Shown piece by piece: positions 465-51,380 of a stretch of DNA of 64,000 nt. Position numbers and translations under genes: made by a program. Position 1 is the stretch's first letter. Each line of letters opens with the position of its first letter. The stretch comes from Polaromonas sp. (lineage in GTDB: Bacteria > Pseudomonadota > Gammaproteobacteria > Burkholderiales > Burkholderiaceae_C): NCBI RefSeq assembly GCF_012927455.1, contig NZ_JABBPE010000002.1:620001-684000 (forward strand), read 5' to 3'. Under the pieces are notes generated by a model. That model ran no database searches. It saw only the letters and a program-made list of their open reading frames with translations, and was not told the origin of the DNA.

Positions 465-2513
465 TCATGCAAACTCCACAATCGGCTGGTCCACGCTCAG
501 GCTTTCGCCTTTTTGCGCCAGCACCTTGTCGACCACGCCATCGGCCGTGGCAAACAGCACGTTTTCCATTTTCATGGCTTCAATCACGGCCACGCGTTCA
601 CCGGCCTGGACTTTTTGCCCCACCTGCACCGCCACTTCAACCAGCAGGCCGGGCATGGGCGACAACACGAAGCGGCTCAGATCCGGCGGCGCCTTGAACG
701 GCATCAAGGCATGAAGCTCGGCGGCGCGCGGCCCCAGCACCATCGCATCGAGTTGCGTCCCGTTGTGAATAATGCGCACGGCCAGAGGATTTCTGCCCAC
801 GCCACGTTCGACCTGCGCCGCAAAAGGCTGGCCATTCACCGTGCCGCGAATACGCGCGCCACCCAAATGCCAGTTGCTACAAATTTCATAGCGCTTTCCG
901 CCCGTTTCTATTGAGCTAGCGCCCGAAATAGCTTGAAAATCCCGGAGGATTGCGGGATGTGGCGTATTTACGCCGCCGGCACCCAGGCCAATCACCACGT
1001 ATTCCTTGCCCACCGTCACGCCATGGCCCGGCATCTGGCCGCTGATGCCCGCGGCCCGGACCCGAATGCGGCGGTACACATAGGCGGCCAATGCCACCAG
1101 AAAACCGGGATCATCATGCGGCACATCTTCGGCACGGAAACCCTGGCTGTAATTTTCGGCAATAAACCCGGTGTTGAAGTCACCAGCTACAAACTTGGGG
1201 TGCGCCAGCAAAGCCGCCTGAAACGGAATGTTGCTGCTGACGCCGCGAATCACAAAGCGGTTGAGCGCATCACGCATCTTGGCAATCGCATCGTTTCTGT
1301 CGCTGCCATGAACGATCAGCTTGGCAATCATCGAGTCGTAAAACATCGAAATTTCGCCGCCGTCCTGCACACCGGTATCGACCCGCACGCCAAAAAGATG
1401 CTCGGTGTCGGCCGCAAACATGGTTTCTTTGGGCGGCTGAAAGTGCACCAGCCGGCCGATGGATGGCAAGAAGCCGCGAAACGGATCTTCGGCATTGATG
1501 CGGCATTCCATCGCCCAGCCATTGCGCTTGACCTGATCTTGCGTGAGCGGCAGCTTTTCGCCGGCGGCCACGCGAATCATTAGTTCCACCAAATCCAGCC
1601 CGGTAATGCATTCCGTCACCGGATGCTCAACCTGCAGACGGGTGTTCATTTCAAGAAAGTAAAAGCTTTGGTCCTTGCCGACAACAAACTCCACGGTGCC
1701 AGCGGATTGGTAGTTCACGGCTTTGGCCAGCAGCACCGCCTGCTCGCCCATGGCCTTGCGCGTCTCGCCGCTGATGAAGGGCGATGGCGCCTCTTCAATC
1801 ACTTTCTGGTGACGGCGCTGGATCGAGCATTCGCGCTCATTCAAGTAGATAACATTGCCGTGGCTATCGCCCAGCAACTGGATTTCGATGTGGCGTGGTT
1901 CTTCAACAAATTTCTCGATGAACACCCGGTCGTCGCCAAAGCTGCTCTTCGCCTCGTTGCGGCAGCTGGTAAAGCCTTCCAGCGCTTCCTTGTCATTGAA
2001 GGCGACGCGCAAGCCTTTGCCGCCGCCCCCCGCGCTGGCCTTGATCATCACCGGGTAGCCAATGCCCTGGGCAATTTCAACCGCTCTTTCAGCCGTTTCA
2101 ATGGCGTCGTTCACGCCCGGAATGCAGTTCACACCGGCCGCACCGGCCAGCTTTTTGGACTCGATCTTGTCGCCCATCGCCGCGATGGAGTGGTGCTTGG
2201 GACCGATGAAGACAATGCCCTCTTCTTCCACCCGCTTGGCAAAGCCGGCGTTCTCGCTCAGAAAACCGTAGCCTGGGTGAACGGCCTGTGCGCCCGTCTG
2301 CTTGCAGGCGGCAATGATTTTCTCGGCCTGCAAATAGCTGTCCCGGCTAGGCGCCGGGCCGATGTTGACGGCTTCGTCCGCCAGTTCGACATGGCGCGCG
2401 TACTTGTCGGCGTCGGAATAAACCGCGACGGTTTTGATGCCCATTTTGCGGGCGGTACGAATGACGCGGCAGGCGATCTCGCCCCGGTTGGCAATCAGAA
2501 TTTTGGTAAACAT
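465..2513 (-). CDS. pccA: Propionyl-CoA carboxylase alpha subunit (biotin carboxylase + BCCP)
   Basis: A 682-residue biotin-dependent carboxylase alpha chain. It carboxylates its own biotin with ATP and bicarbonate and passes CO2 to PccB to make methylmalonyl-CoA. The biotin carboxylase domain fills about residues 1-450 (start MFTKILIANRGEIACRVI; glycine-rich ATP loop ASAGGGGKGLR; EMNTRLQVEHPVTE). A linker/BT-like region follows, then a C-terminal biotinyl domain with EAMKM, the biotinylated Lys being K648. The propionyl assignment rests on the neighbouring mutase and MeaB. Residues about 526-545 (AISGASSIETGGKRYEICS) are encoded by a dispersed repeat copy inserted in frame. A small ORF (2515-2742) separates it from pccB. 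Confidence 0.93.
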   Translation of the reverse strand: MFTKILIANRGEIACRVIRTARKMGIKTVAVYSDADKYARHVELADEAVNIGPAPSRDSYLQAEKIIAACKQTGAQAVHPGYGFLSENAGFAKRVEEEGIVFIGPKHHSIAAMGDKIESKKLAGAAGVNCIPGVNDAIETAERAVEIAQGIGYPVMIKASAGGGGKGLRVAFNDKEALEGFTSCRNEAKSSFGDDRVFIEKFVEEPRHIEIQLLGDSHGNVIYLNERECSIQRRHQKVIEEAPSPFISGETRKAMGEQAVLLAKAVNYQSAGTVEFVVGKDQSFYFLEMNTRLQVEHPVTECITGLDLVELMIRVAAGEKLPLTQDQVKRNGWAMECRINAEDPFRGFLPSIGRLVHFQPPKETMFAADTEHLFGVRVDTGVQDGGEISMFYDSMIAKLIVHGSDRNDAIAKMRDALNRFVIRGVSSNIPFQAALLAHPKFVAGDFNTGFIAENYSQGFRAEDVPHDDPGFLVALAAYVYRRIRVRAAGISGQMPGHGVTVGKEYVVIGLGAGGVNTPHPAILRDFQAISGASSIETGGKRYEICSNWHLGGARIRGTVNGQPFAAQVERGVGRNPLAVRIIHNGTQLDAMVLGPRAAELHALMPFKAPPDLSRFVLSPMPGLLVEVAVQVGQKVQAGERVAVIEAMKMENVLFATADGVVDKVLAQKGESLSVDQPIVEFA
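879..938. repeat. Dispersed GCCC-N9-GGGC repeat, copy 1 (inside pccA)
   Basis: Plus strand reads TCATAGCGCTTTCCGCCC, nine bases, GAGCTAGCGCCCG, then AATAGCTTGAAAA. It aligns with the copies at 24793, 31855 and 51325 (ATAGCtGCTTgCGCCC-N9-GGGCTA). It lies wholly in the pccA frame on the other strand and supplies about 20 residues. It is the most diverged of the clear copies. Confidence 0.6.
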
Positions 2514-2514
2514 T

Positions 2515-2742
2515 TCAGAACCCGTTTTCTTGAATGATTCGTTTCAGCTGTTGAATAGCTTCTTTACTAAAACGCAGACTCTGGCTTTTTTTCCCCGGAA
2601 TTGCACGCCCTGTAGACCCATACGTGTCGAGTTGCAGAAGTTTTTCATCATCCAGAGTGATGATGGTGTAGCTGCATTCCACCGCTGAGTGTTGGGAAAT
2701 CGTTTGAAGCGGCTTCAATTGAATGTTGGTAATTAATGCCAT
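2515..2742 (-). CDS. Small conserved-looking hypothetical protein in pcc operon
   Basis: A 75-residue ORF between pccB and pccA, transcribed with them; its stop is one base from the pccA start, which suggests translational coupling. The sequence is mixed polar (MALITNIQLKPLQTISQHSA...), with a central TIITLDDEKLLQLDTYGS and a basic C-terminal helix (SLRFSKEAIQQLKRIIQENG). No signal peptide, membrane segment or cysteine motif. The ordered codons and tight packing favour a real gene. I do not recognise a family; it could be a small DNA-binding or accessory protein. Confidence 0.6.
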   Translation of the reverse strand: MALITNIQLKPLQTISQHSAVECSYTIITLDDEKLLQLDTYGSTGRAIPGKKSQSLRFSKEAIQQLKRIIQENGF

Positions 2743-2751
2743 CTCAATCCT

Positions 2752-4284
2752 TCACAGCGGAATATTGCCGTGCTTGCGCCACGGGTTTTCTATTTTCTTG
2801 TCGCGCAGCATTACCAGCGAGCGGCAGATGCGTTTGCGCGTTTCATGCGGCAGGATCACATCGTCGATAAAGCCGCGGGCACCGGCAACGAACGGGTTGG
2901 CGAATCTAGCCTTGTATTCGGCTTCCCGGGCGGCCAGCTTGATCGGGTCGCCCTTGTCTTCGCGAAAGATGATTTCGACCGCGCCCTTGGCACCCATCAC
3001 GGCAATCTCGGCATTCGGCCAGGCAAAGTTGACATCGCCGCGCAGGTGCTTTGAAGACATCACGTCGTAGGCGCCGCCGTAGGCCTTGCGGGTAATCACA
3101 GTAATTTTCGGCACGGTGCACTCGGCGTAAGCGTAGAGCAGCTTGGCGCCATGCTTGATGATGCCGCCGTATTCCTGTGAGGTGCCTGGCATGAAACCTG
3201 GCACATCGACAAAGGTGATGACGGGAATGTTGAATGCATCGCAAAAGCGCACAAAGCGCGCCGCCTTGATGGAGCTCTTGATGTCCAGGCAACCGGCCAG
3301 CACCAGCGGCTGATTGGCGACGATACCGACCGACTGGCCTTCCATGCGGCCAAAACCGATGATGATGTTCTTCGCGTACTCAGGCTGAATTTCGAAGAAA
3401 TCGCCATCGTCAACCGTTTTGGCGATCAGCTCCTTCATGTCATAGGGCTTGTTCGGGCTCTCGGGCACCAGCGTGTCCAGGCTCATGTCCATGCGACTGG
3501 CCGGGTCGGCGCTGGGGCGAGCCGGTGCTTTTTCGCGGTTGTTCAGCGGCAGGTAGTTGTACAGCCGGCGCAGCATCACCAGGGCTTCAACATCGTTTTC
3601 AAACGCCAGATCGGCGACGCCGCTGCGGGTGGTGTGGGTAATGGCGCCGCCTAGTTCCTCGGCGGTTACTTCCTCGTGGGTCACGGTCCTGACCACTTCG
3701 GGGCCAGTCACGAACATGTAGGAGCTGTCTTTGACCATGAAAATAAAGTCGGTCATGGCCGGTGAATACACTGCGCCCCCCGCGCTCGGCCCCATGATCA
3801 GGCTGATCTGCGGAATCACGCCGCTGGCCATCACGTTGCGCTGGAACACGTCGGCATAGCCGCCGAGCGAGGCGACACCTTCCTGAATGCGTGCGCCGCC
3901 CGAGTCGTTCAGGCCAATTACTGGCGCGCCAACTTTCATGGCCTGGTCCATCACCTTGCAGATTTTCTCGGCATGGGCTTCAGACAGCGCACCGCCAAAC
4001 ACCGTGAAGTCCTGGCTGAAGACGAACACCAGCCGGCCATTGATCATGCCGTAGCCGGTCACCACACCGTCACCCGGAATCTTGTTGTCCTGCATGCCAA
4101 AGTCACTGCAGCGGTGCTCGACAAACATGTCCCATTCCTCAAACGTGTCCGCGTCCAGCAACACGTCCAGACGCTCGCGCGCCGTCAGCTTGCCCTTGCC
4201 ATGCTGCGCATCGATGCGCTTTTGGCCACCGCCCAAGCGAGCCGCAGCGCGCTTTTTTTCCAGTTGTCGAAGAATTTCCTGCAT
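2752..4284 (-). CDS. pccB: Propionyl-CoA carboxylase beta subunit
   Basis: A 510-residue carboxyltransferase of the acyl-CoA carboxylase beta family, which moves the carboxyl group from biotin on PccA to propionyl-CoA. N- and C-terminal crotonase-fold halves are complete. Typical motifs are [14 protein letters not shown] near the N-terminus, the oxyanion-loop region [19 protein letters not shown], and the second-half [19 protein letters not shown] and [12 protein letters not shown]. The end [17 protein letters not shown] is the usual PccB C-terminus. Full length; starts [20 protein letters not shown]. Transcribed leftward after meaB. Confidence 0.95.
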
Positions 4285-4330
4285 GCTTGGCTTTCATTAG
4301 TCTCTGTAACCGCTATAAAACTCTGTTTGC

Positions 4331-4370
4331 TATCTATTTAATAGCTGCTTGCGCCCGTCCTGATTGCGCT
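4331..4370. repeat. Dispersed GCCC-N9-GGGC repeat, copy 2 (3' end of meaB)
   Basis: Core TTAATAGCTGCTTGCGCCC, GTCCTGATT, GCGC. It overlaps the last codons and the stop of meaB on the opposite strand, encoding the tail SGRAQAAIK. The same peptide is encoded by the copy inside pgeF, showing that both were read in the same frame and orientation. Confidence 0.85.
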
Positions 4371-5371
4371 GCAAGCAGATTTCGTGCTGCAGTTGAGGCT
4401 GGAAGCTGGCCGCTCTCCACCTGCGCAACCAGCGTTGGCAGCAAGGCACTGACCGCCGGGTCGTGCCGGAATGCCTGCTTCAGGCCCGCGTCAATGCGCT
4501 CCCACATCCAGCTGAGTGCCTGGTGCTGGCGGCGCGCGGCCAGTTTGCCGTTGGCGGTTTGCAGGCTTCTGAACTGCGTTACGACGGCCCAGAAGGCATC
4601 GACGCCTTTGTTATGCAGTGCGCTAAGCTGAATCACCTGGGGATGCCAGAAGTTGTCGTAGCTGGCTGCTTGTGCGGTGCCCATCGCGTTGTTGACCAGG
4701 CCAAACAAACGCATGGCAGACTTGATTTGCGCCTCGGCGCGCATGGCGGCGTTCGCGTCAATGTCGGCCTTGTTGATGATCACCAGGTCGGCCAGCTCCA
4801 TTACGCCTTTCTTGATCGCCTGCAAATCGTCACCGGCGTTGGGCAGCTGCATCAGCACAAACATATCAGTCATGTTGGCAACCGCTGTTTCGCTTTGGCC
4901 GACGCCGACGGTTTCAACAATCACCACGTCGTAGCCGGCCGCTTCGCAAACCAGCATGGCTTCGCGCGTTTTTTCTGCGACGCCGCCCAGCGTGCCGCTT
5001 GACGGGCTGGGGCGAATGTAGGCTTGGCTTTGCACCGAGAGCTTTTCCATGCGCGTCTTGTCGCCCAAAATCGAGCCGCCCGACACGCTGGACGAGGGGT
5101 CTATGGTGAGCACCGCGACGCGTTGCCCCTGCGCGATGAGATAGAGTCCCAGCACTTCAATAAAGGTCGATTTACCGACGCCAGGGACGCCGCTGATACC
5201 TAGGCGGAAGGCCTGGCCGGTGTGCGGCAGCAGCGTTGTCAGCAGCTCGTCGGCTTGAGCGCGGTGATCGGCGCGGGTCGATTCGAGCAGCGTGATGGCT
5301 TTGGCGATGGCGCGGCGCTGCACGGCGGGCGCGCCGTCTAGTACAGCTTCCTCCAATAGGCGTGGGGTCAC
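4334..5371 (-). CDS. meaB: Methylmalonyl-CoA mutase-associated GTPase MeaB
   Basis: A 345-residue G3E-family GTPase that loads and protects adenosylcobalamin on methylmalonyl-CoA mutase. Walker [10 protein letters not shown] is at residues 61-69; the second motif region [20 protein letters not shown] and the guanine-specificity motif NKAD are present. The start overlaps the mutase stop by four bases (ATGA), so the two are translationally coupled. The last about nine residues (SGRAQAAIK) come from a dispersed repeat that also provides the TAG stop, so the native C-terminus has probably been replaced or extended. Confidence 0.94.
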
Positions 5372-7536
5372 TTCAAGGCAGCCCGGATCTGCTCCAGCAC
5401 ATCCTTGGCACTCGCCGGAATTGGCGTGCCGGGTCCGTAAATGCCTTTGACGCCGGCTTCGTAGAGCATCTCGTAGTCTTGCCGCGGAATTACGCCCCCA
5501 ACGAAAACGATGATGTCATCGGCACCCTGCTTTTTAAGCTCTTCAATGATTGCTGGAACGAGGGTTTTATGCCCTGCTGCCAGCGTTGAAACACCGACCG
5601 CGTGCACGTCATTTTCAATCGCCTGGCGCGCGCATTCTTCAGGCGTCTGAAACAGCGGCCCCATGTCCACGTCAAAGCCAAGGTCGGCAAACGCCGTGGC
5701 CACGACTTTGGCGCCACGGTCATGGCCGTCCTGGCCGAGTTTTGAAATCATCACGCGGGGGCGGCGGCCCTGGCTTTCGGCAAAAGCGTTGATTTCAGCC
5801 TTGAGGGTGTCCCAGCCTTCAGCCGAGTCATAAGCCGCGGCATACACACCAGTCACCTTTTGCGTATCGGCGCGGTGGCGCCCGTAAACTTTTTCCAGCG
5901 CATCGCTGACCTCGCCCACCGTGGCGCGCAGGCGTATGGCCTGGATGGTCAGGTCCAACAAATTTCCGGAGTTGTCTTCTGCTGCAAAAGTGATAGCAGA
6001 CAACGCCCGTTCTACCTTGGCCGAGTCACGTTTTGATCGAATTTCGTGGAGCCGGGCGATCTGCCCGTCGCGCACGGCCACGTTGTCGATGTCGCGCGTC
6101 TCAATGGCGTCTTCAGTCTTCAGCTTGTACTTGTTGACGCCGACGATCACGTCCTTACCGCTGTCGATGCGAGCCTGCTTTTCGGCCGCAGCGGCTTCGA
6201 TCTTGAGCTTGGCCCAGCCGCTGTCGACGGCTTTGGTCATTCCGCCCATGGCTTCTACTTCTTCGATGATGGCCCAGGCGGCATCGGCCATGTCCTGGGT
6301 GAGTTTTTCCATCATGTAGCTGCCGGCCCAGGGGTCAATCACGCTGGTGATGTGAGTTTCCTCCTGGATGATGAGCTGGGTGTTGCGGGCAATGCGTGAG
6401 CTGAATTCTGTGGGCAGCGCGATCGCTTCGTCAAAGCTGTTGGTGTGCAAACTTTGCGTGCCGCCAAATACCGCCGCCATGGCTTCGATGGTGGTGCGCA
6501 CCACATTGTTGTACGGGTCCTGCTCGGTCAGGCTCCAGCCGCTGGTCTGGCAATGAGTGCGCAGCATCAGGCTCTTGGGGTTCTTCGCGTCAAAACTTTT
6601 CATGATGCGGCACCAGAGCAGACGGGCGGCGCGCATCTTGGCGACTTCCAGGTAGAAGTTCATGCCGATGGCCCAGAAAAAACTCAGGCGTCCGGCAAAG
6701 CCATCAACATCGAGCCCCTTGCCCAGTGCAGTTTTGACATATTCCTTGCCGTCTGCCAATGTAAAGGCCAATTCGAGCGCCTGGTTCGCGCCGGCTTCCT
6801 GCATGTGATAACCCGAGATCGAGATCGAGTTGAACTTCGGCATCTTCTGCGCCGTGTACTCGATGATGTCGCCAATGATGCGAATGCTGGGCAGCGGCGG
6901 GTAAATATAGGTGTTGCGAACCATGAACTCCTTGAGGATGTCGTTCTGGATCGTTCCGCTTAGTTGGTCCTGGCTCACACCCTGCTCTTCGGCCGCCACC
7001 ACATAGCCCGCCAACACTGGCAGCACCGCGCCGTTCATGGTCATGGAAACACTGACCTTGTCGAGCGGGATCTGTTTGAAGAGGATTTTCATGTCCTCAA
7101 CGCTGTCGATAGCTACGCCGGCCTTGCCCACATCGCCGGTCACGCGCGGGTGGTCGCTGTCGTAGCCGCGGTGCGTCGCCAGATCAAACGCGACAGACAC
7201 GCCCTGTCCACCTGCGGCGAGCGCCTTGCGGTAAAACGCATTGGATTCTTCAGCAGTCGAAAAGCCGGCGTATTGGCGAATCGTCCATGGCCTGACGGAG
7301 TACATCGTGGCCTGCGGGCCGCGAATAAAGGGCTCAAACCCTGGCAATGTATTGGTGTACGCCAGGTCCTTGGTGTCCTCAGCCGTATACAGAGGCTTGA
7401 CACTGATGCCGTCTGGCGTTTGCCAGTTCAAGGCATTCACATCACCGCCGGGGGCTGATTTGGCCGCCGCCTTGGCCCAGTCGTCCAGGTTGCTGGCGTT
7501 GAAAAAAGTAGACGGCGAAGTTTTTTTGGGGCTCAT
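5368..7536 (-). CDS. scpA: Methylmalonyl-CoA mutase, single-chain
   Basis: A 722-residue adenosylcobalamin enzyme interconverting methylmalonyl-CoA and succinyl-CoA. The N-terminal TIM barrel includes [20 protein letters not shown], typical of the substrate channel. The C-terminal B12-binding domain has GQDGHDRG with the base-off ligand His at 605, then GVSTLAAGH and VGGVIPRQD. Length and order match the single-chain (large subunit-like) mutases. It is the first gene of the leftward operon and faces the divergent GntR gene. No separate small MutA subunit is seen here. Confidence 0.95.
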
Positions 7537-7605
7537 AGCAGGTTTTGCGGCAAGAAATGAAGCTGGCTGCCAAGCCTTTTTACTCGCTTTTTTGACAGTT
7601 GGGCA

Positions 7606-20996: not shown

Positions 20997-21040
20997 TGCC
21001 TTCTCCTTGATTTTGTAACTGTTGCGAAATTATTTTGCTA

Positions 21041-21085
21041 TTAAATTAATAGCTGACTACGCCCGTTCTTATTGGGCGTAAGCTT
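21041..21085. repeat. Dispersed GCCC-N9-GGGC repeat, copy 3 (phaA-phaB gap)
   Basis: TTAATAGCTGACTACGCCC, GTTCTTATT, GGGCGTAAGCTTG. Intergenic copy within the PHB operon. It could fold in the mRNA and affect expression of phaB. Confidence 0.8.
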
Positions 21086-21099
21086 GTTTTAGCTGATAT

Positions 21100-22278
21100 T
21101 CAGCGTTCCACACAGAGGGCAACCCCCATACCGCCACCAATGCACAGACTGGCAATGCCTTTTTTGGCGTCGCGGCGCACCATTTCGTGCAGCAGCGTTA
21201 CCAGGATGCGGCAACCGGACGCGCCAATCGGGTGACCAATGGCAATAGCGCCGCCGTTGACGTTGACCTTGCTGGTGTCCCAGCCCATCTCATTGTTCAC
21301 CGCACAGGCCTGCGCCGCAAAAGCTTCGTTGATTTCGAGCAGGTCCAGCTCTTGCGCCTTCCAACCGGCCCGGGCCAGCGCCTTGGTCGATGCCGGCACC
21401 GGCCCCATACCCATGAAGGCCGGATCCAGTCCCGTGGTGGCGTAGCTGGCAATGCGCGCCAGCGGCTTCAAACCCAGCGCCGCAGCCTTTTTGGCGGTCA
21501 TGACCATGACGGCGGCCGCGCCATCGTTCAGGCCCGACGCGTTGCCAGCGGTGACACTACCGGCCTTGTCAAACGCCGGGCGCAAACCGGCCAGCACATC
21601 AGCATTGGTTTTGCGGTTGATGAACTCATCGGCAGCAAACAGCATCGGTTCGCCTTTTTTCTGCGGTAGGGAAATAGGAATGATCTCGTCCTTGAAACGG
21701 CCGGCATCCTGCGCGGCTGCGGCCTTGGTCTGGCTGGCCAGCGCCAGCGCGTCCTGCGCTTCACGGCCTATGCTGTATTTTTTGGCAACGTTTTCTGCCG
21801 TGATGCCCATGTGGTACTGGTTGTAGACGTCCCAGAGACCGTCAACGATCATGGTGTCAACCATCTTCCAGTCGCCCATGCGCTGGCCTTCGCGCGAACC
21901 GTTCAGGACGTGCGGCGAGGCACTCATGTTTTCCTGGCCCCCGGCAATCACGATTTCGCTGTCACCGGTTGCCACGGCTTGCGCGGCCAGCATGACGGAC
22001 TTCAGCCCCGAGCCGCAGACCGCGTTGATCGTCAGGCCCGGAATACCGTGCGGGAAACCGGCCTTGATGACCGCCTGGCGCGCCGGATTTTGGCCGACAC
22101 CGGCCGCCAGAACCTGGCCCATGATGACTTCACCGACCTGTTCGGCGCTCAAACCGGAGCGCTCCAGCACCGCCTTGATGACGGCGGCGCCCAACTCGGT
22201 TGCCGGCATTTTTGCCAGCGAGCCACCAAATTTTCCGACTGCGCTGCGGCCGGCTGAAACGATAACGATGTCTTCCAT
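21100..22278 (-). CDS. phaA: Acetyl-CoA acetyltransferase (beta-ketothiolase)
   Basis: A 392-residue thiolase that condenses two acetyl-CoA to acetoacetyl-CoA. The acylated Cys is in NAVCGSGLKSVMLA; the C-terminal NEAFAAQACAVN, NVNGGAIAIGHPIGASG and CIGGGMGVAL carry the His and second Cys. Full length for a biosynthetic thiolase. Between phaC and phaB in the canonical CAB order. Its leader (on the minus strand) carries a hexamer repeat at 22305-22346. Confidence 0.95.
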   Translation of the reverse strand: MEDIVIVSAGRSAVGKFGGSLAKMPATELGAAVIKAVLERSGLSAEQVGEVIMGQVLAAGVGQNPARQAVIKAGFPHGIPGLTINAVCGSGLKSVMLAAQAVATGDSEIVIAGGQENMSASPHVLNGSREGQRMGDWKMVDTMIVDGLWDVYNQYHMGITAENVAKKYSIGREAQDALALASQTKAAAAQDAGRFKDEIIPISLPQKKGEPMLFAADEFINRKTNADVLAGLRPAFDKAGSVTAGNASGLNDGAAAVMVMTAKKAAALGLKPLARIASYATTGLDPAFMGMGPVPASTKALARAGWKAQELDLLEINEAFAAQACAVNNEMGWDTSKVNVNGGAIAIGHPIGASGCRILVTLLHEMVRRDAKKGIASLCIGGGMGVALCVER

Positions 22279-24225: not shown

Positions 24226-24549
24226 ATGTATTTGATCGTTATCGCCTGGATCTATGTCGTGCTCATGATGAGTGTGGCCGAAGCCACCAACAGCACCGGT
24301 ACTTTGCTGGGCGCATTGATTACATTTGTACTTTATGGGCTGGTACCGGTGGCGCTGGTGATTTACCTGATGGGCGCGCCGGCACGCAGCAAGGCGATCA
24401 AGAAACGTGAGGCGGACGAACGGGCACGTCGCAGCGCGGCCGAATCGGCTGGATCTGGCGCGGCGTCAGTCCAGCCAGATGCAGGCGGCCATGCGCCCGG
24501 TAGTTCCGAAGCCGCTGCTGGCGTCGCGCCGGTGCGAAAAGAACCTTAA
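24226..24549 (+). CDS. Small membrane protein, hypothetical
   Basis: A 107-residue protein with two predicted transmembrane helices (YLIVIAWIYVVLMMSVAEA and LLGALITFVLYGLVPVALV) and a charged, Ala/Gly/Ser-rich cytoplasmic tail. GGGAG sits just before the ATG. I recognise no family. Its last 84 bp (24466-24549) overlap the 3' end of pgeF in antisense; both reading frames look real there, because PgeF keeps its normal C-terminal motif. Confidence 0.65.
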   Translation: MYLIVIAWIYVVLMMSVAEATNSTGTLLGALITFVLYGLVPVALVIYLMGAPARSKAIKKREADERARRSAAESAGSGAASVQPDAGGHAPGSSEAAAGVAPVRKEP

Positions 24550-25323
24550 GGGGTTGCTCACGGTGCACCAGGGCGCGCTGCCGTCGTTGCCATAAATCTG
24601 TGTAACGCCCAACGCCTGCAAGCGCAGGCGCGCCAGGCCTTGCAGATCGGCCAAATACTTGCATTCCCCGCTTGCATCGGCTGGCGCCAGGGCGACAAAA
24701 CAGCGGCTGGCTTTGGGCTGCGCCGCGACAAACGCCGCCCTCACTTCAGCTCCCACCTCAAAGGCCGAAGGTCCAATGCACGGGCCCAGCCATGCTATTG
24801 TTTTAATAGCTGCTTGCGCCCGTCCTGATTGGGCTAGAGCCCTAAATGATGCATAAACGGCCTCCAGAACGCCGTTTTGACCGGCTTCAAGGCCGCCCCC
24901 CGCCAGACCGCGCCAGCCGGCATGCGCGGCAGCCACCACATCGCCCACCTCGGTACTCAGCAGCACCGGCAGGCAGTCGGCCACCATGACGGTGCAAGCC
25001 AGTTGGCGCTGCGTCGTCACGCAGGCGTCCGCCTGCAGTCCATCGCTGCTGGCGCTGTCCAGCGTCAGCACCGCGCTGCCATGAACCTGCTTGAGAAATA
25101 CTGCCCGAGTGCCGCTGGCGCGTTGCAGCAGCGCGCGGTTGGCCTGGACCTGCGCCGGCTGGTCGCCCACATGGTCGCCCAGGTTCATGCTGGCATAAGG
25201 CGCGGAAGAAACCCCGCCGGCACGCGTGGTAAACAGCGCCCGGACATTGCCAGGCGCTGGCCAGTCGGGCACTACCCAGTCGACGGGCCAGGCGCCGGGC
25301 GCCGCAGGCAGGCTTTGCATCAA
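24466..25323 (-). CDS. pgeF: PgeF/YfiH-family purine nucleoside phosphorylase (laccase-domain)
   Basis: A 285-residue Cu/Zn oxidoreductase-fold enzyme of the YfiH group, reported to act on purine nucleosides and sometimes on peptidoglycan editing. Zn ligands are H81 (KQVHG), C117 (VADCLP) and H134 (AAHAGWRG); PCIGPSAFEVG follows. The C-terminus TGRMAACIWL is the family end. Residues about 158-177 ([20 protein letters not shown]) are extra compared with usual members and are encoded by an in-frame dispersed repeat, just before the WLGPC loop. Starts in an ATGA overlap with the isomerase gene upstream. Confidence 0.9.
   Translation of the reverse strand: MMQSLPAAPGAWPVDWVVPDWPAPGNVRALFTTRAGGVSSAPYASMNLGDHVGDQPAQVQANRALLQRASGTRAVFLKQVHGSAVLTLDSASSDGLQADACVTTQRQLACTVMVADCLPVLLSTEVGDVVAAAHAGWRGLAGGGLEAGQNGVLEAVYASFRALAQSGRAQAAIKTIAWLGPCIGPSAFEVGAEVRAAFVAAQPKASRCFVALAPADASGECKYLADLQGLARLRLQALGVTQIYGNDGSAPWCTVSNPLRFFSHRRDASSGFGTTGRMAACIWLD
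24793..24850. repeat. Dispersed GCCC-N9-GGGC repeat, copy 4 (inside pgeF)
   Basis: TTTTAATAGCTGCTTGCGCCC, GTCCTGATT, GGGCTAGAGCCC. Best-preserved copy. Read antisense in the pgeF frame without stops, giving [10 protein letters not shown], the same peptide as at the MeaB tail. Confidence 0.9.
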
Positions 25324-30588: not shown

Positions 30589-31782
30589 ATGGCACAAACA
30601 ACTTCCTTCATTATTTCGGGCGGCGGCATTGGCGGCCTGGCAGCCGCGCTGGTGCTGGCGCAGGATGGCCATGCGGTGAGCGTGCTGGAACAGGCTGACG
30701 CCTTCAGCGAAATTGGCGCCGGCATCCAGCTCGGCCCCAATACCTTTCGGATGTTCGACTACATGGGCCTGACGGAAGCCGTCAACCGGGTGGCATTTTT
30801 CCCGCCCGGGCTGGGCATGAACGACGTGCGCACCGGCGAAAAAATCGTGCGCGTCAAGCTTGGCGACCTGGCCCGCGCTACTTACGGCTTTCCTTATGGT
30901 GTGATTTACCGAGCCGACCTGCACCAGCTGCTGCTGCAGGCCTGTCAGACGCGGCCCGGCATCACCCTGCGCACGCTGGCCAAGGTCGAATCCTTTGAGC
31001 AATCGGCCGACGGCGTGCGCGTGCAGCTGGCCGGTGGCGAAAGCGTGCAGGGCAGCGCCTTGATTGGCGCCGACGGCCTGTGGAGCAAGATCCGTGAAGT
31101 GATCGTGGGCGACGGCAAACCCCGCGTGTCGGGCCAGGTGGCCTATCGCGCGGTGCTCAGGCGCGAACAGGTTCCGGCCCACTTGTGGAATGACGACGTG
31201 ACCCTGTGGGGCGGCGAAAAAACCCATCTGGTGCATTACCCGCTGCGCCGCGGGGAGCTGTTCAACCTGGTGGCGGTGTTTCACAGCGATAAATACGACG
31301 AAGGCTGGAACACCTTCGGCGACAGCGCCGAGCTGACTGAGCGTTTCGCCCAGGCCTGCCCGCAGGTCAGGGAATTGCTGGACAAGATCGACACCTGGAA
31401 GATGTGGCTGCTGGGCGACCGCGAACCGGTGAAAAACTGGACCGACCGGCGCGTGACGCTGCTGGGCGACGCCGCCCACCCCATGCTGCAGTACCTGGCC
31501 CAGGGTGCCGGCCAGGCGATTGAAGACGCCGTGGTGCTGCGCGAAGCCTTGCGCTTCACGCGTGGCGACGTGCCGCGTGCCTTTCAGAAGTACCAGCAGG
31601 CCCGGTATTTGCGCACTGGCCGGGTGCAGCTGACGGCGCGTTTTTACGGCGACATTTACCACGCGGCGGGGGTTCAGCGCGAGCTGCGCAACCAGTTGTT
31701 CCAGAGCGGAACCGAAAGCGCCGGCTTTGCCGGACTGAAGTGGATGTATGACGGAATCGAGCCATCAAAGCTGTTCCAATGA
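30589..31782 (+). CDS. nagX: 3-hydroxybenzoate 6-hydroxylase (FAD monooxygenase)
   Basis: A 397-residue class A flavoprotein hydroxylase. FAD loop GGGIGGLAAALVLAQDGHAV, the second motif IGADGLWSKIR, and TLLGDAAHPMLQYLAQGAGQ. It most likely converts 3-hydroxybenzoate to gentisate with NADH and O2, because gentisate 1,2-dioxygenase and fumarylpyruvate hydrolase genes follow in the same direction. Salicylate-type hydroxylases are close relatives, so substrate rests on context. First gene of the rightward aromatic operon. Confidence 0.85.
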   Translation: MAQTTSFIISGGGIGGLAAALVLAQDGHAVSVLEQADAFSEIGAGIQLGPNTFRMFDYMGLTEAVNRVAFFPPGLGMNDVRTGEKIVRVKLGDLARATYGFPYGVIYRADLHQLLLQACQTRPGITLRTLAKVESFEQSADGVRVQLAGGESVQGSALIGADGLWSKIREVIVGDGKPRVSGQVAYRAVLRREQVPAHLWNDDVTLWGGEKTHLVHYPLRRGELFNLVAVFHSDKYDEGWNTFGDSAELTERFAQACPQVRELLDKIDTWKMWLLGDREPVKNWTDRRVTLLGDAAHPMLQYLAQGAGQAIEDAVVLREALRFTRGDVPRAFQKYQQARYLRTGRVQLTARFYGDIYHAAGVQRELRNQLFQSGTESAGFAGLKWMYDGIEPSKLFQ

Positions 31783-31807
31783 AGAATTCAAGGCCTTCGG
31801 AGAACCC

Positions 31808-32824
31808 ATGAGACTGCTTGCCGCGTACTTCGCGTACATCGCGTATTTGCGCGCTACATTTTTGATAGCTGCTTGCGCCCTACCCATATGGGCTACAGCC
31901 CAAAATGACATGCAAAATGGCAAAACCGGGGCAGTCTGGCCGACGCGCGCCGTGCGCATCCTGGTGGGTTTCCCCGGTGGCTCGACACCCGACATGGCGG
32001 CACGCACCCTGGCCGAGCCGCTGGCCAAAGCGCTAGGCCAGCCGGTCATCATTGAAAACCGGCCAGGCGCGTCCGGCAACATTGCCGCTGACCAGGTTGC
32101 CAAGGCCAATGACGGCCACACGCTGGGCGTCGTCATCAATGGCAACCTGACTTCGGCCAAGCTGCTTTTCCCCAAGCTGCCTTACGACCCGGCCAAAGAC
32201 TTCGCCCCGATCTCGCTGCTGGCCACCGCGCCGCTGCTGCTGGTGGCGCCCGCCAGCCAGCCGGGCGGCGCCGCATTCTTCGCGGCCGCGCGGCGCGGTG
32301 GCAGTCAATGGAACTACGGCTCGGTCGGCAATGGCTCGGTGGCGCATCTGGGCATGGAGCTGCTGAAAAGCCGCGCCCCGGGCGTGGCGCCGCTGCATGT
32401 GCCCTATCCGGGCAACCCGCAGGTCGTCACCGCCATGCTGGGTGGGCAGATCCAGATGGCGCTGATGCCACCGGGCGTGGCGATGCCGCATGTGCGCTCG
32501 GGCAAGCTGCGCGCGATTGGCCTGGCCGGTGGCCGCAGTGCGCTGGTGCCGGATGTGCCGCCGCTGGCCGACGCCGGTCTGCGCAACGTTAACCTGGAAG
32601 TGTGGACGGCGCTGGTCGGCCCGGTCAGCCTGTCCAAGGCTGCCCAGACGCGGCTGGCCCAAGAAGTACCGCGCATCCTGCGTGAGGCGGACACCCGGCA
32701 AAAACTGTTCGACCAGGGTTGGCAGGCGGTGGGCAGCTCGCCCGAAGGCTTGAAGCGTCGCATCCAGGACGAAGCCGCGATGCTGGGCAGCATCATCCAG
32801 ACGCGCGGCATCAAAATTGAATAA
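31808..32824 (+). CDS. Orphan TctC/Bug-family solute-binding protein
   Basis: A 338-residue tripartite tricarboxylate transporter receptor (Bug family): WPTRAVRILVGFPGGSTPDM, VIIENRPGASGNIAADQVAK, DFAPISLLATAPLLLV, LHVPYPGNPQVVTAMLGGQIQ. No TctA/TctB membrane partners nearby. I choose the ATG at 31808 (CGGAGAACCC before it). The signal peptide is odd: residues 16-37, including the core TFLIAACALPIW and cleavage region ATAQ, come from a dispersed repeat copy. It may bind an aromatic acid for this catabolic cluster. Confidence 0.85.
   Translation: MRLLAAYFAYIAYLRATFLIAACALPIWATAQNDMQNGKTGAVWPTRAVRILVGFPGGSTPDMAARTLAEPLAKALGQPVIIENRPGASGNIAADQVAKANDGHTLGVVINGNLTSAKLLFPKLPYDPAKDFAPISLLATAPLLLVAPASQPGGAAFFAAARRGGSQWNYGSVGNGSVAHLGMELLKSRAPGVAPLHVPYPGNPQVVTAMLGGQIQMALMPPGVAMPHVRSGKLRAIGLAGGRSALVPDVPPLADAGLRNVNLEVWTALVGPVSLSKAAQTRLAQEVPRILREADTRQKLFDQGWQAVGSSPEGLKRRIQDEAAMLGSIIQTRGIKIE
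31855..31918. repeat. Dispersed GCCC-N9-GGGC repeat, copy 5 (signal peptide of TctC)
   Basis: TTTTTGATAGCTGCTTGCGCCC, TACCCATAT, GGGCTACAGCCC, then AAAATGACATGCAAAA. Here the repeat is in the sense orientation and encodes a hydrophobic stretch. A 9-bp near-repeat (GCGTACTTC, GCGTACATC, GCGTATTTG) lies just upstream. Confidence 0.85.
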
Positions 32825-38196: not shown

Positions 38197-39249
38197 ATGA
38201 TTCAACGTCGTATCCTTTTGAAATCCGGCGCTGCCGTCGCCCTTGGTGTACCGGCTTTGAGTGGCCGGGCCCAGCAAGTGGTCACACTCAAATTCCACAC
38301 CTTCATGGCGCCGCAGTCCAATGTCTGGCTGGCCATGCACAAACCTTGGATGGAAAAGGTCGAGAAGGAATCGGGCGGCCGCATCAAATTTGAAGCCTAT
38401 CCCGCCATGCAGTTGGGCGGCACGCCGGTGCAGCTGTACGACCAGGTAAAAGATGGTGTGGTTGACGTAGTGTGGACGCTGCCGGGCAATACGGCCGGAC
38501 GTTTCCCGCGCATTGAGGCCTTTGAGCTGCCTTTCATGATGACCAACGCTGAAGCTACTTCCAAGGCCTATTGGGAGTATGTACAGACCGTGGCGGTTGA
38601 CGAATTCAAGGACACACAGGTGCTGGCGCTGCAGGTTCATGGGCCCGGCGTCATTCACACCGTCGACAAGCCGGTCAAATCCATCGCCGACATGCGCGGC
38701 CTCAAGCTGCGCGCGCCGACCCGCCAGGTCACCAAACTGATGGGTGTGCTGGGCGCCACGCCGGTGGGCATGCCGCTGCCGCAGATTCCCGACGCGCTGA
38801 GCAAGGGCACCATCAATGGTTGCGTGATTCCCTGGGAAGTCGTGCCTTCGGTCAAAGTCAACGAACTGACCAAGTTCCACGCCGAATTTGATCCCGCCGG
38901 TGGCAGCCTGTACACCACCACCTTCGTGATGGCCATGAACAAAGCCAAATACAACGCCCTTCCACCTGATCTGAAAAAGGTCATCGACAACAATTCCGGT
39001 ATGGCCACCTCGGCCCACCTGGGCAAGATCCAGCAGGGCAACGACGTGCCGGGGCGCAAGAGCGCTAGCGACCGCGGCAACACCATTTACACCATCAACG
39101 CGGCGGAAGCGCAGGAATTCCGCCGCAAATCGCGCACCGTCGAAGTCGAGTGGATCGAAGACATGAACAAGAAAGGCTTCGACGGCAAGAAACTTCTGGA
39201 CACGGCGCGCAGCCTGATAGAAAAGCACAGCAAAACCAGCAAAGCCTGA
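38197..39249 (+). CDS. dctP: TRAP transporter substrate-binding protein (DctP)
   Basis: A 350-residue periplasmic receptor. Signal sequence MIQRRILLKSGAAVALGVPALSGRA has a twin-arginine (RRILLK) motif and may be Tat-exported. Mature fold: VTLKFHTFMAPQSNVW, RIKFEAYPAMQLGGTPVQLY, GLKLRAPTRQVTKLMGVLGA with the conserved Arg that binds carboxylates. Unlike most systems the receptor is last. Spacer to dctM is 103 bp. Substrate unknown, an aromatic acid plausible. Confidence 0.9.
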   Translation: MIQRRILLKSGAAVALGVPALSGRAQQVVTLKFHTFMAPQSNVWLAMHKPWMEKVEKESGGRIKFEAYPAMQLGGTPVQLYDQVKDGVVDVVWTLPGNTAGRFPRIEAFELPFMMTNAEATSKAYWEYVQTVAVDEFKDTQVLALQVHGPGVIHTVDKPVKSIADMRGLKLRAPTRQVTKLMGVLGATPVGMPLPQIPDALSKGTINGCVIPWEVVPSVKVNELTKFHAEFDPAGGSLYTTTFVMAMNKAKYNALPPDLKKVIDNNSGMATSAHLGKIQQGNDVPGRKSASDRGNTIYTINAAEAQEFRRKSRTVEVEWIEDMNKKGFDGKKLLDTARSLIEKHSKTSKA

Positions 39250-39311
39250 GTGGCTGGCAGGCCTAATGCTGGCATTCTTTGAAAAAACCGTGTTTTGACC
39301 CGTTTTTTTTG

Positions 39312-39366
39312 TATCATTTAGGCCTCTAGTCCAATGAATACGGGCGTAAGCAGCTATTTATTTAAT
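39312..39366. repeat. Dispersed GCCC-N9-GGGC repeat, copy 6 (upstream of NUDIX)
   Basis: Reverse orientation: on the minus strand AAATAGCTGCTTACGCCC, GTATTCATT, GGACTAGAGGCCTAAATGAT. Intergenic, between dctP and the NUDIX gene. Confidence 0.85.
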
Positions 39367-39435
39367 AGCACCTCGATGGTGCTATGCGCTTTCAGGCAGG
39401 TGACTCGCCGCCGGCAAAATCGCTACACTTATTTG

Positions 39436-39990
39436 ATGCACCGCCCACCCTTGAAACACTGCCGCGTTTGCGGCACCGCCGTGGCCTACCGCCTGCCCGA
39501 CGACGGCGACACCAAAGAGCGCGCCGTCTGCCCCGCCTGCCACACCGTCCACTATGAAAATCCGCTCAACGTGGTGGGCACCGTGCCGGTGTGGGGTGAT
39601 GATGGCGCGCAGGTGCTGCTCTGCAAACGCAGTATCGAGCCGCGCCGGGGCAAGTGGACGCTGCCGGCCGGTTTCATGGAAATGGGCGAAACCACCTCGG
39701 AAGGCGCGGCCCGCGAGACCGACGAGGAAGCCGGCGCGCAGTTTGAAATGCAGGGCCTGTTTTCCATCATGAATGTCGTGCGCGTCGGGCAGTTGCACCT
39801 GTTTTACCGCGCCCGGCTGCTCAGCGCCGAGTTCAATCCCGGCCATGAAACGCTGGAAGCCAGGCTGTTTACCGAGTCAGAAATCCCGTGGGACGAGCTA
39901 GCCTTCAGAACCGTCAAGGAGACGCTGGAGCATTACTTTGCCGACCGCCGCAAGGGAAGTTACGGCATTCATGTAGTCGATATTGCCTAA
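39436..39990 (+). CDS. NUDIX hydrolase with zinc ribbon
   Basis: A 184-residue NUDIX hydrolase. A N-terminal CxxC...CxxC zinc ribbon (CRVCG and CPAC) is followed by the Nudix box GFMEMGETTSEGAARETDEEAG, which matches G-x5-E-x7-REx2EExG. The zinc ribbon plus Nudix arrangement is found in NADH or nucleotide pyrophosphatases and ADP-ribose enzymes; the substrate is not determined. Start at 39436 because the upstream open frame is repeat sequence. Confidence 0.88.
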   Translation: MHRPPLKHCRVCGTAVAYRLPDDGDTKERAVCPACHTVHYENPLNVVGTVPVWGDDGAQVLLCKRSIEPRRGKWTLPAGFMEMGETTSEGAARETDEEAGAQFEMQGLFSIMNVVRVGQLHLFYRARLLSAEFNPGHETLEARLFTESEIPWDELAFRTVKETLEHYFADRRKGSYGIHVVDIA

Positions 39991-45403: not shown

Positions 45404-45409
45404 GATGGT

Positions 45410-45459: not shown

Positions 45460-45482
45460 GCTTTCACCGGCCCCCCAAAATT

Positions 45483-46412: not shown

Positions 46413-46413
46413 A

Positions 46414-48000
<1,587 letters not shown>

Positions 48001-48012
48001 AGGATCAACATC

Positions 48013-48453
48013 ATGATGACCAACCCCACCGCCCGCATCACGCAAGGCCAGTTCAGCTTCCTGCCCGAACTGACAGACGCCGAGATCACGCTTCAAATCG
48101 AGTACGGCCTCAAAAAGGGCTACGCCTGGAGCGTTGAATACACCGACGACCCGCATCCGCGCAACACCTACTGGGAAATGTATGGCATGCCGATGTTCGA
48201 CCTGCACGATGCGGCGGGCGTCATGCAGGAGCTGCAGGCCTGCCGCAAGACTTTCCCCAACCACTACATCCGCCTGATGGCCTTCGACTCCACGCGTGGC
48301 GTTGAAACCATCGCGATGAGCTTCATCGTCAACCGGCCCGCCAGCGAGCCCGGTTTCGGCCTGGTGCGGCAGGAGGTCAATGGCCGCTCGATGCGCTACA
48401 CCGTGCACAGTTACGCCACCGATAGCGCCGAGGCCCAGCGCTACGGCGCCTGA
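48013..48453 (+). CDS. cbbS: RuBisCO small subunit, form IC
   Basis: A 146-residue small subunit: [40 protein letters not shown] and [13 protein letters not shown]. The extra C-terminal stretch ([21 protein letters not shown]) is the hairpin extension of red-type small subunits that lines the L8S8 channel. AAGGA precedes the start; two ATG codons (48013, 48016) are possible. Twelve bases after cbbL. Confidence 0.96.
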
Positions 48454-48484
48454 GAGTAACTTCAACGCACACCGGACGCTTGCC

Positions 48485-49441
48485 ATGACCGCACCGCTGT
48501 ACTCCATTCCCGGCGCGCCGGCCGGCACGTCGTTGGTCACGCCCGCGGCGCTGGCCGAGCCGGCGCGCACGGTGGCCGACATCCTGGCGCAAAGCCAGGT
48601 CGAGTCGGTGATGGACGAGCTTGACCGTGATTTGATCGGCCTGGCGCCGGTGAAGACCCGCATCCGCGACGTCGCCGCGCTGCTGGTGATCGACAAGCTG
48701 CGTGCCCAGCACGGGCTGGCCGCGCAGGCGCCCTCGCTGCACATGTGCTTCACGGGCAACCCCGGCACCGGCAAAACCACGGTGGCGTTGCGTATGGCCG
48801 AGATTTTGCACCGCCTGGGCTACATACGAAAAGGCCATGTGGTTAGCGTCACGCGCGACGACCTGGTGGGCCAGTACATCGGCCACACCGCACCCAAAAC
48901 GAAAGAAGTACTGAAGAAGGCGATGGGCGGCGTGCTCTTCATCGACGAGGCGTACTACCTGTACCGCCCAGAGAACGAACGCGACTACGGTCAGGAAGCG
49001 ATCGAGATCCTGCTGCAGGGGATGGAGAACCAGCGCGACGACCTGGTGGTGATCCTCGCCGGCTACAAGGACCGGATGGACACCTTCTTCCAGTCCAATC
49101 CCGGCATGAGCTCGCGCATCGCGCACCATCTGGTCTTCCCCGACTACGACGTGGTCGAACTGCTGCAGATAGCCGACCGCATGCTGGCATCCACGCACTA
49201 CCAGTTCGGCGTCGGTGCCCGTGAGGCCTTCGACGCCTACCTGCAACGGCGCACCGTGCAACCACATTTCGCCAACGCACGCAGCGTGCGCAACGCGCTC
49301 GACCGTGCCCGCCTGCGCCAGGCCAGCCGGCTTTATGCCGATCGCGAGTCCGCCCTGAGTGCCGAGGACCTTAGCACCATTGCCGCCAGCGACATCCTCG
49401 CCAGCCGGGTTTTTGCCAACATCGAAGGGGACGCACCGTGA
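48485..49441 (+). CDS. cbbX: Red-type RuBisCO activase CbbX
   Basis: A 318-residue AAA+ remodelling ATPase that frees inhibited RuBisCO by pulling on the large-subunit C-terminus. Walker [10 protein letters not shown] at 91-99, Walker B VLFIDEA at 150-156, pore-loop region YIGHTAPKT, arginine finger region [11 protein letters not shown]. The 5' region up to 48485 belongs to cbbS. Stops in an overlap with cbbY (GTGA). Confidence 0.95.
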
Positions 49442-50178
49442 CGCCTGTTCCATTGCGTGCCTTGATCTTTGACGTTGACGGCACGCTCGCCGACACCGAA
49501 AGCGCCCACCGCGCCGCCTTCAACCAGGCTTTTGCCGCGGCTGGCCGCGACTGGGTCTGGGACGAGGCCCGTTACACCAAGCTGCTGGAGGTTTCGGGTG
49601 GCAAGGAGCGCATCCTGCATTACTGGCAGCAGGTGCAACCCGACATCCGGCCCATCAACGGCTCGGCGGTGCCCGACACGGTGCAGCACCTGCACGACTT
49701 GAAAACCGCTGCCTATGAGCAGGCGGTGCAGGACGGCGCGGTGCGCTTGCGCCCCGGCGTGCTGCAACTGATTGAGTCGGCCTATCGCGAAGGCCTGCGC
49801 CTGGCCATTGCCACAACCACCTCGCCCGTCAACATCGCAGCGCTGCTGCGTGCCACGCTGGGCCCGGACTGGTCGCGTTATTTCATGGTGATTGAGGACG
49901 CGTCCACCGCGCCCCTTAAAAAACCCCATCCGCAGGTGTATCTGCAAACCCTCAAGCGCCTGCAATTGCCTGCCAGCGCGTGTCTGGCCTTTGAGGATTC
50001 GGCCAACGGGCTGCAGGCCGCGCTCGGCGCCGGTTTGGCAACCCTGATCACGCCCAACCACTTCACGGCGGATCACGATTTCACTGGGGCGCTACGCATC
50101 CTGCCCGATCTGCTGGGCGCCAGTGTGGCCGATTTGCGCGCCTGGCATGCGGCGGCTCCGGCGTCTGACCCATCGTAA
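49438..50178 (+). CDS. cbbY: Xylulose-1,5-bisphosphate phosphatase CbbY
   Basis: A 246-residue HAD phosphatase: nucleophile D12 and D14 in [11 protein letters not shown], cap domain with the substrate helices, [12 protein letters not shown] and [14 protein letters not shown] for motifs II-IV. CbbY removes the misfire product xylulose-1,5-bisphosphate that blocks RuBisCO. Starts with GTG overlapping the cbbX stop by four bases. Confidence 0.92.
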
Positions 50179-50210
50179 GACAACAAGATCAACTTCCAGG
50201 AGACTTCACC

Positions 50211-51314
50211 ATGCCCTTGACCAAACGCTTCACGCTGACGCGTTACCTGATTGAGGAGCGCCGCCGCTTTCCCGGCGCCGGTGGCGATTTCAACGCCTTG
50301 ATTCTCGATGTGGCACTGGCGTGCAAGGCCATCGCCCGCGCGGTGGCCTTTGGGGAACTGGGCGGCACGCCAGGCCAGCCTGCGGCCAAAGTGGGCGATG
50401 TGGGCGGCGCTGTCAATGTGCAGGGCGAGACGCAAAAGCCCCTGGACGTCATCAGCAACCAGTATTTCACCGGCATGAATGAATGGGGCGGGCACCTGGC
50501 GGGCATGGTGTCCGAAGAAATGGAGGGCGCCTACCAGATCCCCAAGGCCTATCCGCGCGGCAAGTATCTGCTGGCGTTTGATCCACTGGACGGCTCCAGC
50601 AACATCGACGTAAACGTGTCGGTGGGCAGCATTTTTTCCATCTTGCGCGCGCCCCAAGAGGTGATTGACAGCGGCCGCGACGTGGTCGAGTCTGATTTTT
50701 TACAGCTCGGCTTAACCCAAGCGGCGGCCGGTTACGCGCTCTATGGCCCCACCACCATGCTGGTGCTCAGTGTGGGCAACGGCGTGGCCGGCTTCACGCT
50801 GGACCCTAGCCTGGGCGAGTTCATGCTGACGCACCCCAACCTAAAGGTACCCGCCGACACGCAGGAATTTGCCATCAACGCGTCGAACAGCCGCTTCTGG
50901 GAGCCGCCGGTCACGCGCTATGTCGACGAATGCCTGGCCGGCAAGACCGGCCCGCGCGACAAGGATTTCAACATGCGCTGGATTGCCAGCATGGTGGCCG
51001 AGGCGCACCGCATCCTGATGCGCGGCGGCGTCTTCCTGTACCCGCGCGACAGCAAAGACGCCTCCAAACCTGGGCGGCTGCGCCTGCTGTACGAGGCCAA
51101 CCCGATTGGCTTCATCATCGAGCAGGCCGGCGGGCGCGCCAGCACCGGGCGCGAACCCATGCTGGGTGTGCAGCCGACCAGCCTGCACCAGCGCATTGGC
51201 CTGGTGTTCGGCTCCAGGCATGAGGTCGAGCGCATCGAGCGCTACCATGCCGAGCCCTTCAAGCCGCTGGAAACGACGCCGCTGTTTACCGAGCGCAGCT
51301 TGTTCCGGGTTTGA
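50211..51314 (+). CDS. cbbF: Fructose-1,6-bisphosphatase class I
   Basis: A 367-residue FBPase; the signature [11 protein letters not shown] at 123-133 with the metal-binding [23 protein letters not shown] and [11 protein letters not shown] near the C-terminus. Regenerates fructose-6-phosphate in the Calvin cycle; the paralogue also serves gluconeogenesis. Preceded by CCAGGAGAC. A dispersed repeat copy lies before the next gene. Confidence 0.95.
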
Positions 51315-51324
51315 TATGCTCACT

Positions 51325-51380
51325 AATTGATAGCTGCTTGCGCCCGTACTGTATGGGCTATAGCCTGATTTGACCACTTT
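51325..51380. repeat. Dispersed GCCC-N9-GGGC repeat, copy 7 (cbbF-cbbP gap)
   Basis: TTGATAGCTGCTTGCGCCC, GTACTGTAT, GGGCTATAGCC, then TGATTTGACC. Inside the Calvin operon, 20 bases before the cbbP start. Confidence 0.88.

Follow-up and report, generated by a model that had tools for sequence, protein, structure and literature searches.

The repetitive extragenic palindromic (REP) sequences and bacterial interspersed mosaic elements (BIMEs) that go with REP-associated tyrosine transposases (RAYTs) are short hairpins present in hundreds of copies, mainly between genes and in both orientations. We analyzed 64,000 nucleotides of Polaromonas sp. (NCBI RefSeq assembly GCF_012927455.1, contig NZ_JABBPE010000002.1, positions 620,001 to 684,000; "the window" is this whole stretch), which carries copies of a dispersed palindromic element resembling REP sequences in all of these respects. 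It differs from the REP/RAYT system in that called genes contain 30% of the copies in the sample and in that the Y1 transposase gene does not track the presence of the element. REP hairpins also characteristically have a GTAG/GGAG-type guide tetranucleotide next to them. Rickettsia palindromic elements (RPEs), which measure ~150 bp according to the review PMC10969869, are similar to it in being dispersed, in having palindromic parts, and in having some in-frame copies within conserved genes, where the proteins tolerate them. Compared by description only, the Polaromonas element differs from RPEs in its length of ~66 bp, its two small hairpins, its mostly intergenic location, its occurrence in another bacterial class, and its lineage dialects. 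The betaproteobacterial repeat element (BRE) of Bordetella, as given in PMC3110155, is 75 to 91 bp long, has 69% GC on average, is often tandem, and has 4 copies in Polaromonas naphthalenivorans CJ2. BRE is also dispersed, occurs in Polaromonas and other Comamonadaceae, is usually intergenic with some copies in coding sequences, and is found on chromosomes only. Our element is set apart from it by description in being ~66 bp, 44% GC on average in strong copies, and dispersed, with 350 architecture-pattern matches in CJ2. A miniature repeat from the genus, the miniature inverted-repeat transposable element (MITE) of Polaromonas sp. JS666, is cited in PMC10969869. We found no description of the present element in the openly licensed literature, in which BRE and the cited JS666 MITE came nearest. 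The element acts like REP sequences in some respects and like RPEs in others, and membership of either group is not shown.

The family is genuine and ancient, and its copies keep their positions. A covariance model trained on copies from genome G000 found 80 copies in 464 kb, three of them not 72 bp long, which extrapolates to about 770 copies per genome. A genome-wide search with the covariance model gave at least 150 copies, the best 150 candidates all being matches. The 16-mer core, with at most one mismatch, occurs 287 times in the genome versus once for the reversed pattern, and with at most three mismatches the core pattern has 6 matches in the window versus 0.01 expected in shuffles. 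A position-weight matrix (PWM) produced 24 hits in real genes versus 0, 3, and 3 in synonymous gene shuffles, and the reversed PWM produced none on the same DNA. In a 400-kb element-free control the PWM had no hits at or above 12, and the covariance model had no match above 11.3 bits in 400 kb from two element-free members of the bacterial family. By these shuffle, reversed-pattern, and element-free-genome controls, the repeat is far beyond chance.

Positions are shared between genomes. CJ2 (G023 in our labels) and G242 are ~95% identical, and every one of the 18 CJ2 copies that fall in aligned blocks has a G242 counterpart at the same position; the reverse check gave 17 of 17 G242 copies at the same places in CJ2. 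Aligned blocks did not cover 3 of the 21 copies in CJ2 and 5 of the 22 in G242. Target duplications were sought in this pair, in which there was no polymorphic copy. The boundaries of coding copies are eroded. At ~82% identity, between G000 and P. jejuensis (G225), the model recovered 17 of 19 copies at orthologous sites (9 of the 11 genic and all 8 intergenic ones), and at the two remaining sites the sequences are similar and match, or almost match, in length. Separately, we noticed a second repeat family, with the inverted sequence CCCGCGAAGGCGGG / CCCGCCTTCGCGGG, directly 3' of one G242 element copy (110191-110262, joined G023 stretch); it is absent from CJ2 at that site, which makes this second family polymorphic.

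An alignment of 36 copies, free of gaps, defines a strand-polar repeat unit of ~66 bp with two hairpins, its information running from TTGCTAT to TAAAA. The consensus reads TTGCTATTAAATTAATAGC, a TGCTTGC spacer, GCCCGT-loop-ATTGGGC, TAGAGGCC, and an A/T-rich tail to about TAAAA; the arms are GCTATT..AATAGC in the first hairpin and GCCC..GGGC in the second, with the A/T-rich tail after them. Fold prediction gives two separate small hairpins with 8 pairs in total. No terminal inverted repeats were seen by inspection between the consensus ends TTGCTAT... and ...TAAAA. GC content of the strong copies is 36 to 57% (mean 44%). Among 70 strong copies the closest pair is 83% identical, compared with a mean of 78%, a 95% point of 81%, and a maximum of 85% in column shuffles, and identical six-base loops occur in 43 pairs versus 5.3 expected. 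A linkage test on 70 of 90 copies (score >45) found 13 of 15 region pairs unlinked; weak linkage appeared between the middle and the tail and between the tail and the downstream region (r 0.08 and 0.11). Stem covariation was absent from the G000 copy set and weak between genera, where it was no better than one slid control, and covariation was dropped as an argument for an RNA function. When Rfam families were applied at gathering score, just one tRNA was matched in the window, and the element was unmatched. We also noticed two overlapping head-to-head pairs of elements that have the first hairpin in common (L137:1072-1190 and L147:19627-19750), an arrangement that is BIME-like; the second pair has one weak member.

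The window holds eight copies, as follows.

872 to 943, plus strand: copy in pccA, more diverged, 50.7 bits by the covariance model; antisense to gene 465-2513 (minus).
4325 to 4396, plus strand: copy at the 3' end of meaB, 62.1 bits; meaB is 4334-5371 (minus).
21033 to 21104, plus strand: intergenic copy that reaches the stop codon of a thiolase gene, 62.6 bits; the gene is 21100-22278 (minus), Pfam PF00108 and PF02803.
24790 to 24861, plus strand: copy in pgeF, 77.8 bits, antisense and in frame; pgeF is 24466-25323 (minus), Pfam PF02578.
31849 to 31920, plus strand: copy in a TctC-family gene, 59.3 bits; the gene is 31748-32824 (plus), Pfam PF03401.
39302 to 39373, minus strand: intergenic copy, 71.3 bits, flanked by called genes 38278-39249 and 39481-39990.
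51314 to 51385, plus strand: intergenic copy, 63.3 bits; of the flanking called genes, one ends at 51314 and the next starts at 51401.
55143 to 55214, plus strand: degraded eighth copy over the 3' end of a gene, 28.8 bits, E 8e-6; the gene is 54488-55162 (plus).

The copy in pccA is read without a stop as PccA residues about 523 to 547; PccA was assigned via PDB 3n6r and 6ybp, and its homologs show small gaps within and just before the element. The copy at meaB (assigned via NCBIfam NF006958 and PDB) encodes ...SGRAQAAIK and provides the MeaB stop codon. In pgeF the element has orthologous copies in relatives, and in the TctC-family gene it is read in frame within the N-terminal signal region (FLIAACALPIW), at a site that is element-like in some relatives and not in others. 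Much of the original prediction, made from the letters of this stretch, agrees with these results. All seven copies that it listed are present, six by the core pattern and the one at 872-943 by the covariance model; the copies in PccA, the MeaB tail, PgeF, and TctC read through without internal stops; PgeF and MeaB do have SGRAQAAIK in common; and the dispersed family it proposed is confirmed by the controls above. It had also described a core with nine free middle bases, and these do vary, but they are not fully free, given a bias to ATT in their 3' part and the excess of identical loops, and the unit is longer than that core. Its single palindrome has given way to two separate hairpins.

The gene calls came from a simple custom gene finder that made 81% of bases coding and probably under-calls. 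Against these calls, 44 of the 80 copies are intergenic (12.2 expected) and 24 lie inside genes (60.9 expected), while gene-end overlaps comprise 10 at 3' ends (3.3 expected) and 2 at 5' ends (3.5 expected). Intergenic copies between tandem gene pairs are split 13 to 13 in orientation, and neither their excess between convergent genes (12 of 44, p 0.18) nor their deficit between divergent genes (6 of 44, p 0.21) is significant; a terminator or other oriented function was dropped accordingly. The in-gene copies are read without stops and use four of the six frames (anti-2 in 10, sense-1 in 9, anti-1 in 3, and sense-2 in 2). Among the 53 non-gene copies of 72 bp, frames are open as anti-1 in 24, sense-1 in 23, anti-2 in 13, and sense-0 in 10. 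Because none of these 53 has either of the other two frames open, two in-gene copies use a frame that is closed in all of them. Host genes include a dnaE2-type error-prone polymerase, cysN, nadE, selO, purL, ligA, dapE, and prmB, as well as pcm, moeA, dnaX, boxC, benzoate-CoA ligase, and urtD, and a few lack a family match.

At dapE, a coding copy is a true insertion: 23 consecutive residues of the G000 protein are absent from the element-free Polaromonas G013. We surveyed this loop at 80 loci, of which 76 were readable and four gave no motif. It has 37 to 46 residues in 31 and 28 to 32 residues in 5 of the 36 loci with element sequence, versus 20 to 28 residues in the 40 loci without it. In an AlphaFold model of DapE (mean pLDDT 86.5), the sole segment below 50 is residues 66 to 83, within the element region. 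Short partial element-like sequences were also noticed in the same loop at four loci not labeled Polaromonas (L275, L281, L289, and L292), and these may be eroded old copies or the result of repeated insertion at one loop.

From sequence comparison, insertion is likely at other genes as well. MoeA has gained ~23 residues versus E. coli, PurL 11 versus a solved homolog, PgeF 8 (with a gap in E. coli YfiH at the element), asparaginase 6 versus a family member, NadE 3 versus a solved homolog, and PccA 3 within the element plus 4 immediately before it versus solved homologs; small length differences versus distant homologs are uncertain, and the comparisons with G013 are the firm ones. Length is unchanged over the element in LigA versus E. 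coli and 7 of 8 Polaromonas relatives (one residue differs near the edge in G013), in PrmB versus G013 (one residue just outside), in benzoate-CoA ligase versus 4rm3 (two residues just before), and in a weak MoeA copy versus E. coli. Part of the coding copies therefore added no length. Because LigA and PrmB keep their length yet score 39.5 and 45.2 bits, orthologs without the repeat partly carry homologous residues, an outcome that the original prediction had itself named as counting against insertion. Insertion into genes in frame, as first proposed, is real in the addition to DapE and likely in those to PgeF and MoeA, but it is not a habit of the element, since the in-gene versus intergenic count it called for put genes below random expectation. 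Nor is present mobilization of the repeat supported, given 18 copies without a presence/absence difference between two genomes that are ~95% identical.

Matches to the element were found in at least 56 of 150 genomes of the Burkholderiaceae_C-level family to which the window belongs, covering at least 49 of 126 genera, and 10 of the 56 have just one or two. Among the candidates scored, none of 16 genomes from other families of the order was matched, and sampling 120 genomes across the order yielded two matched genomes, both from the window's own family. Within the genus, an architecture pattern run on 81 genomes gave no match in 20, 1 to 9 in 10, 10 to 99 in 20, and at least 100 in 31, with up to 546; counts below ~10 may be chance because reversing the pattern still gives 0 to 11 matches per strand. 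The members with no match or one include G013, G022, G007, and G021.

The ~95% identical pair also allowed a comparison of substitution among parts of the element. From the 18 aligned CJ2 copies, 16 were entered (two are not 72 bp) and 14 projected cleanly, and these differ at 8 of 336 core-column sites, 216 of 4178 flank sites, and 40 of 294 variable-column sites (Fisher tests: p 0.019 for core versus flanks and 9e-8 for core versus variable columns). In 18 G000/G225 pairs, the core (96 of 569) is slower than the variable columns (105 of 275). The second hairpin occurs in two types, TTGCGC..GCGCAAAAGG in CJ2 and GCGCCC..GGGCTAGAGG in G000. At LigA, DapE, and PgeF, all 9 copies from CJ2, G242, G201, G210, and G018 are of the CJ2 type, with score differences of -18.9 to -36.2, versus +17 to +23 for the G000 copies at these loci. 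The 9 CJ2-type copies were outside the training set, whereas that set did include all of the four G000 sites tested except LigA; projection failed for TctC in CJ2 and G242 and at some other loci.

Copies are also unevenly spread over the replicons of CJ2. In 236 kb sampled from about 956 kb of small contigs, a CJ2-trained PWM found 1 copy, versus 29 in 240 kb of chromosome, and the G000-trained covariance model found 1 versus 26. We take seven of the small contigs to be plasmids; the other is a 100% match to plasmid NC_008763.1. One 72-bp copy had no match in plasmid and phage collections, in a test of low sensitivity.

Our preferred reading, held with slightly more belief than doubt, is that the family is an ancient inserted REP-like repeat that is now maintained as a chromosomal recognition site. 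Its original spread would have gone through a single-strand hairpin intermediate made by some enzyme, and at least one coding copy, the +23 residues of DapE, was added as an in-frame stretch in a loop. The core would now be the recognition site, either double-stranded or as an extruded hairpin, of a putative chromosomal protein. Selection, or short-patch recombination that repeatedly overwrites sites locally, would preserve the copies whose core is good. In favor of this reading are the copy number with its controls, the DapE insertion and the low-confidence model segment that it overlaps, the shared positions, the tighter core of the close pair, the dialects, the scarcity of copies on the small CJ2 replicons, and the even orientation between tandem genes. 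We attach a low probability to a bolder proposal, in which a ~60-bp chromosome-specific motif persists at hundreds of loci through an overwriting drive, whether short-patch, templated by single strands, or mediated by transformation. This drive would rewrite even essential-gene coding sequence such as ligA with length unchanged, and would switch all sites to a new dialect when the recognition factor of a lineage changes.

Several observations weigh against maintenance as a recognition site. No binding protein or mobilizing enzyme was identified, stem covariation between genera is weak, and exchanging halves among the copies of a single genome gives folds as good as those of real copies. The G000/G225 core is not slower than its flanks (96 of 569 versus 986 of 5254, p 0.28), so that the evidence for constraint relative to flanks comes from a single pair with 14 copies; the core columns, moreover, were defined on one genome of that close pair, and the flanks are partly coding. 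As for the dialects, other relatives are intermediate in score (-19 to +14), CJ2 and G201 have weak copies at LigA, and over all copies, with training copies included in both sets, G000 has a mean of +8.4 with 19 of 77 negative and the CJ2 lineage a mean of -26.3. The dialect contrast covers three loci, and the five CJ2-type genomes may be one clade. Copying between some elements may also have taken place; the closest pair at 83%, the repeated loop six-mers, and the weak linkage of the tail with its neighbors are its observed basis.

Under a REP/RAYT explanation, the repeat would be a REP sequence mobilized as single-stranded DNA by a Y1 transposase that is usually encoded once in Polaromonas. 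Consistent with this, Y1_Tnp (PF01797) is matched in 79 of the 81 genomes of the genus, exactly once in 65 of them, and that match is RAYT-like; a weak element lies 3' of the Y1 gene in G000, CJ2, G242, G129, and G201; and the hairpin form, the hundreds of copies, and the intergenic preference would fit. However, the gene is also present in G013, G022, G007, and G021, with their absent or single pattern matches, and the Y1 transposase was not supported as a co-distributed factor. The covariance model placed an element near the Y1 gene in 1 of 20 loci, and a very permissive PWM placed one within ~700 bp in 7 of 21, which we roughly estimate to be near average density; none of the 21 loci has a strong element beside the gene, and in no examined locus is it flanked on either side by a pair of strong copies, one left and one right. 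We find this explanation improbable. Apart from this question, we note that the G000 Y1_Tnp gene (L031:1168-1875, 235 aa, RAYT-like) has GGGGTCAG-like sequences around it.

It is also possible, though we doubt it, that no transposition was involved and that a protein-recognized motif, like a DNA uptake sequence, originates through substitutions at chance pre-sites, some of them coding, and is spread site by site by biased recombination, its dialects following changes in the protein. Copies at LigA, PrmB, benzoate-CoA ligase, and the weak MoeA site, which reach 28 to 50 bits with no change of length, argue in this direction, as do the unlinked state of most variable-region pairs in strong copies, the dialects at orthologous sites, and the rarity of the element on the small replicons of CJ2. 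Against it, 60 bp is long for a motif that originates by substitution, and the DapE and MoeA insertions add length. An active MITE or RPE-like transposon that still inserts into genes would account for the high copy number, the in-frame copies in conserved genes, the DapE addition, and the repeated loop six-mers. We nonetheless disfavor it as very improbable, since 0 of 18 copies are polymorphic at ~95% identity, no pair of strong copies exceeds 83%, the consensus lacks terminal inverted repeats, and copies are rare on the small CJ2 replicons and fewer in genes than random.

If the core is indeed maintained at hundreds of like sites, a chromosomal DNA-binding or DNA-processing factor is implied across a large bacterial family. 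Such a factor should be findable by gene-content comparison because pattern matches range from none to more than 500 within one genus. The copies in dapE, pgeF, purL, moeA, ligA, and pccA show a repeat that extends or rewrites the sequence of an enzyme in frame, a matter to which the RPEs had drawn attention, and the dialects at orthologous sites offer a means to separate selection, gene conversion, and drive.

Elsewhere in the window, about six 9-bp tandem repeats (AGCTGGTTC) lie at 54361-54441, near the 3' end of gene 52385-54469, and their unit is a multiple of three.

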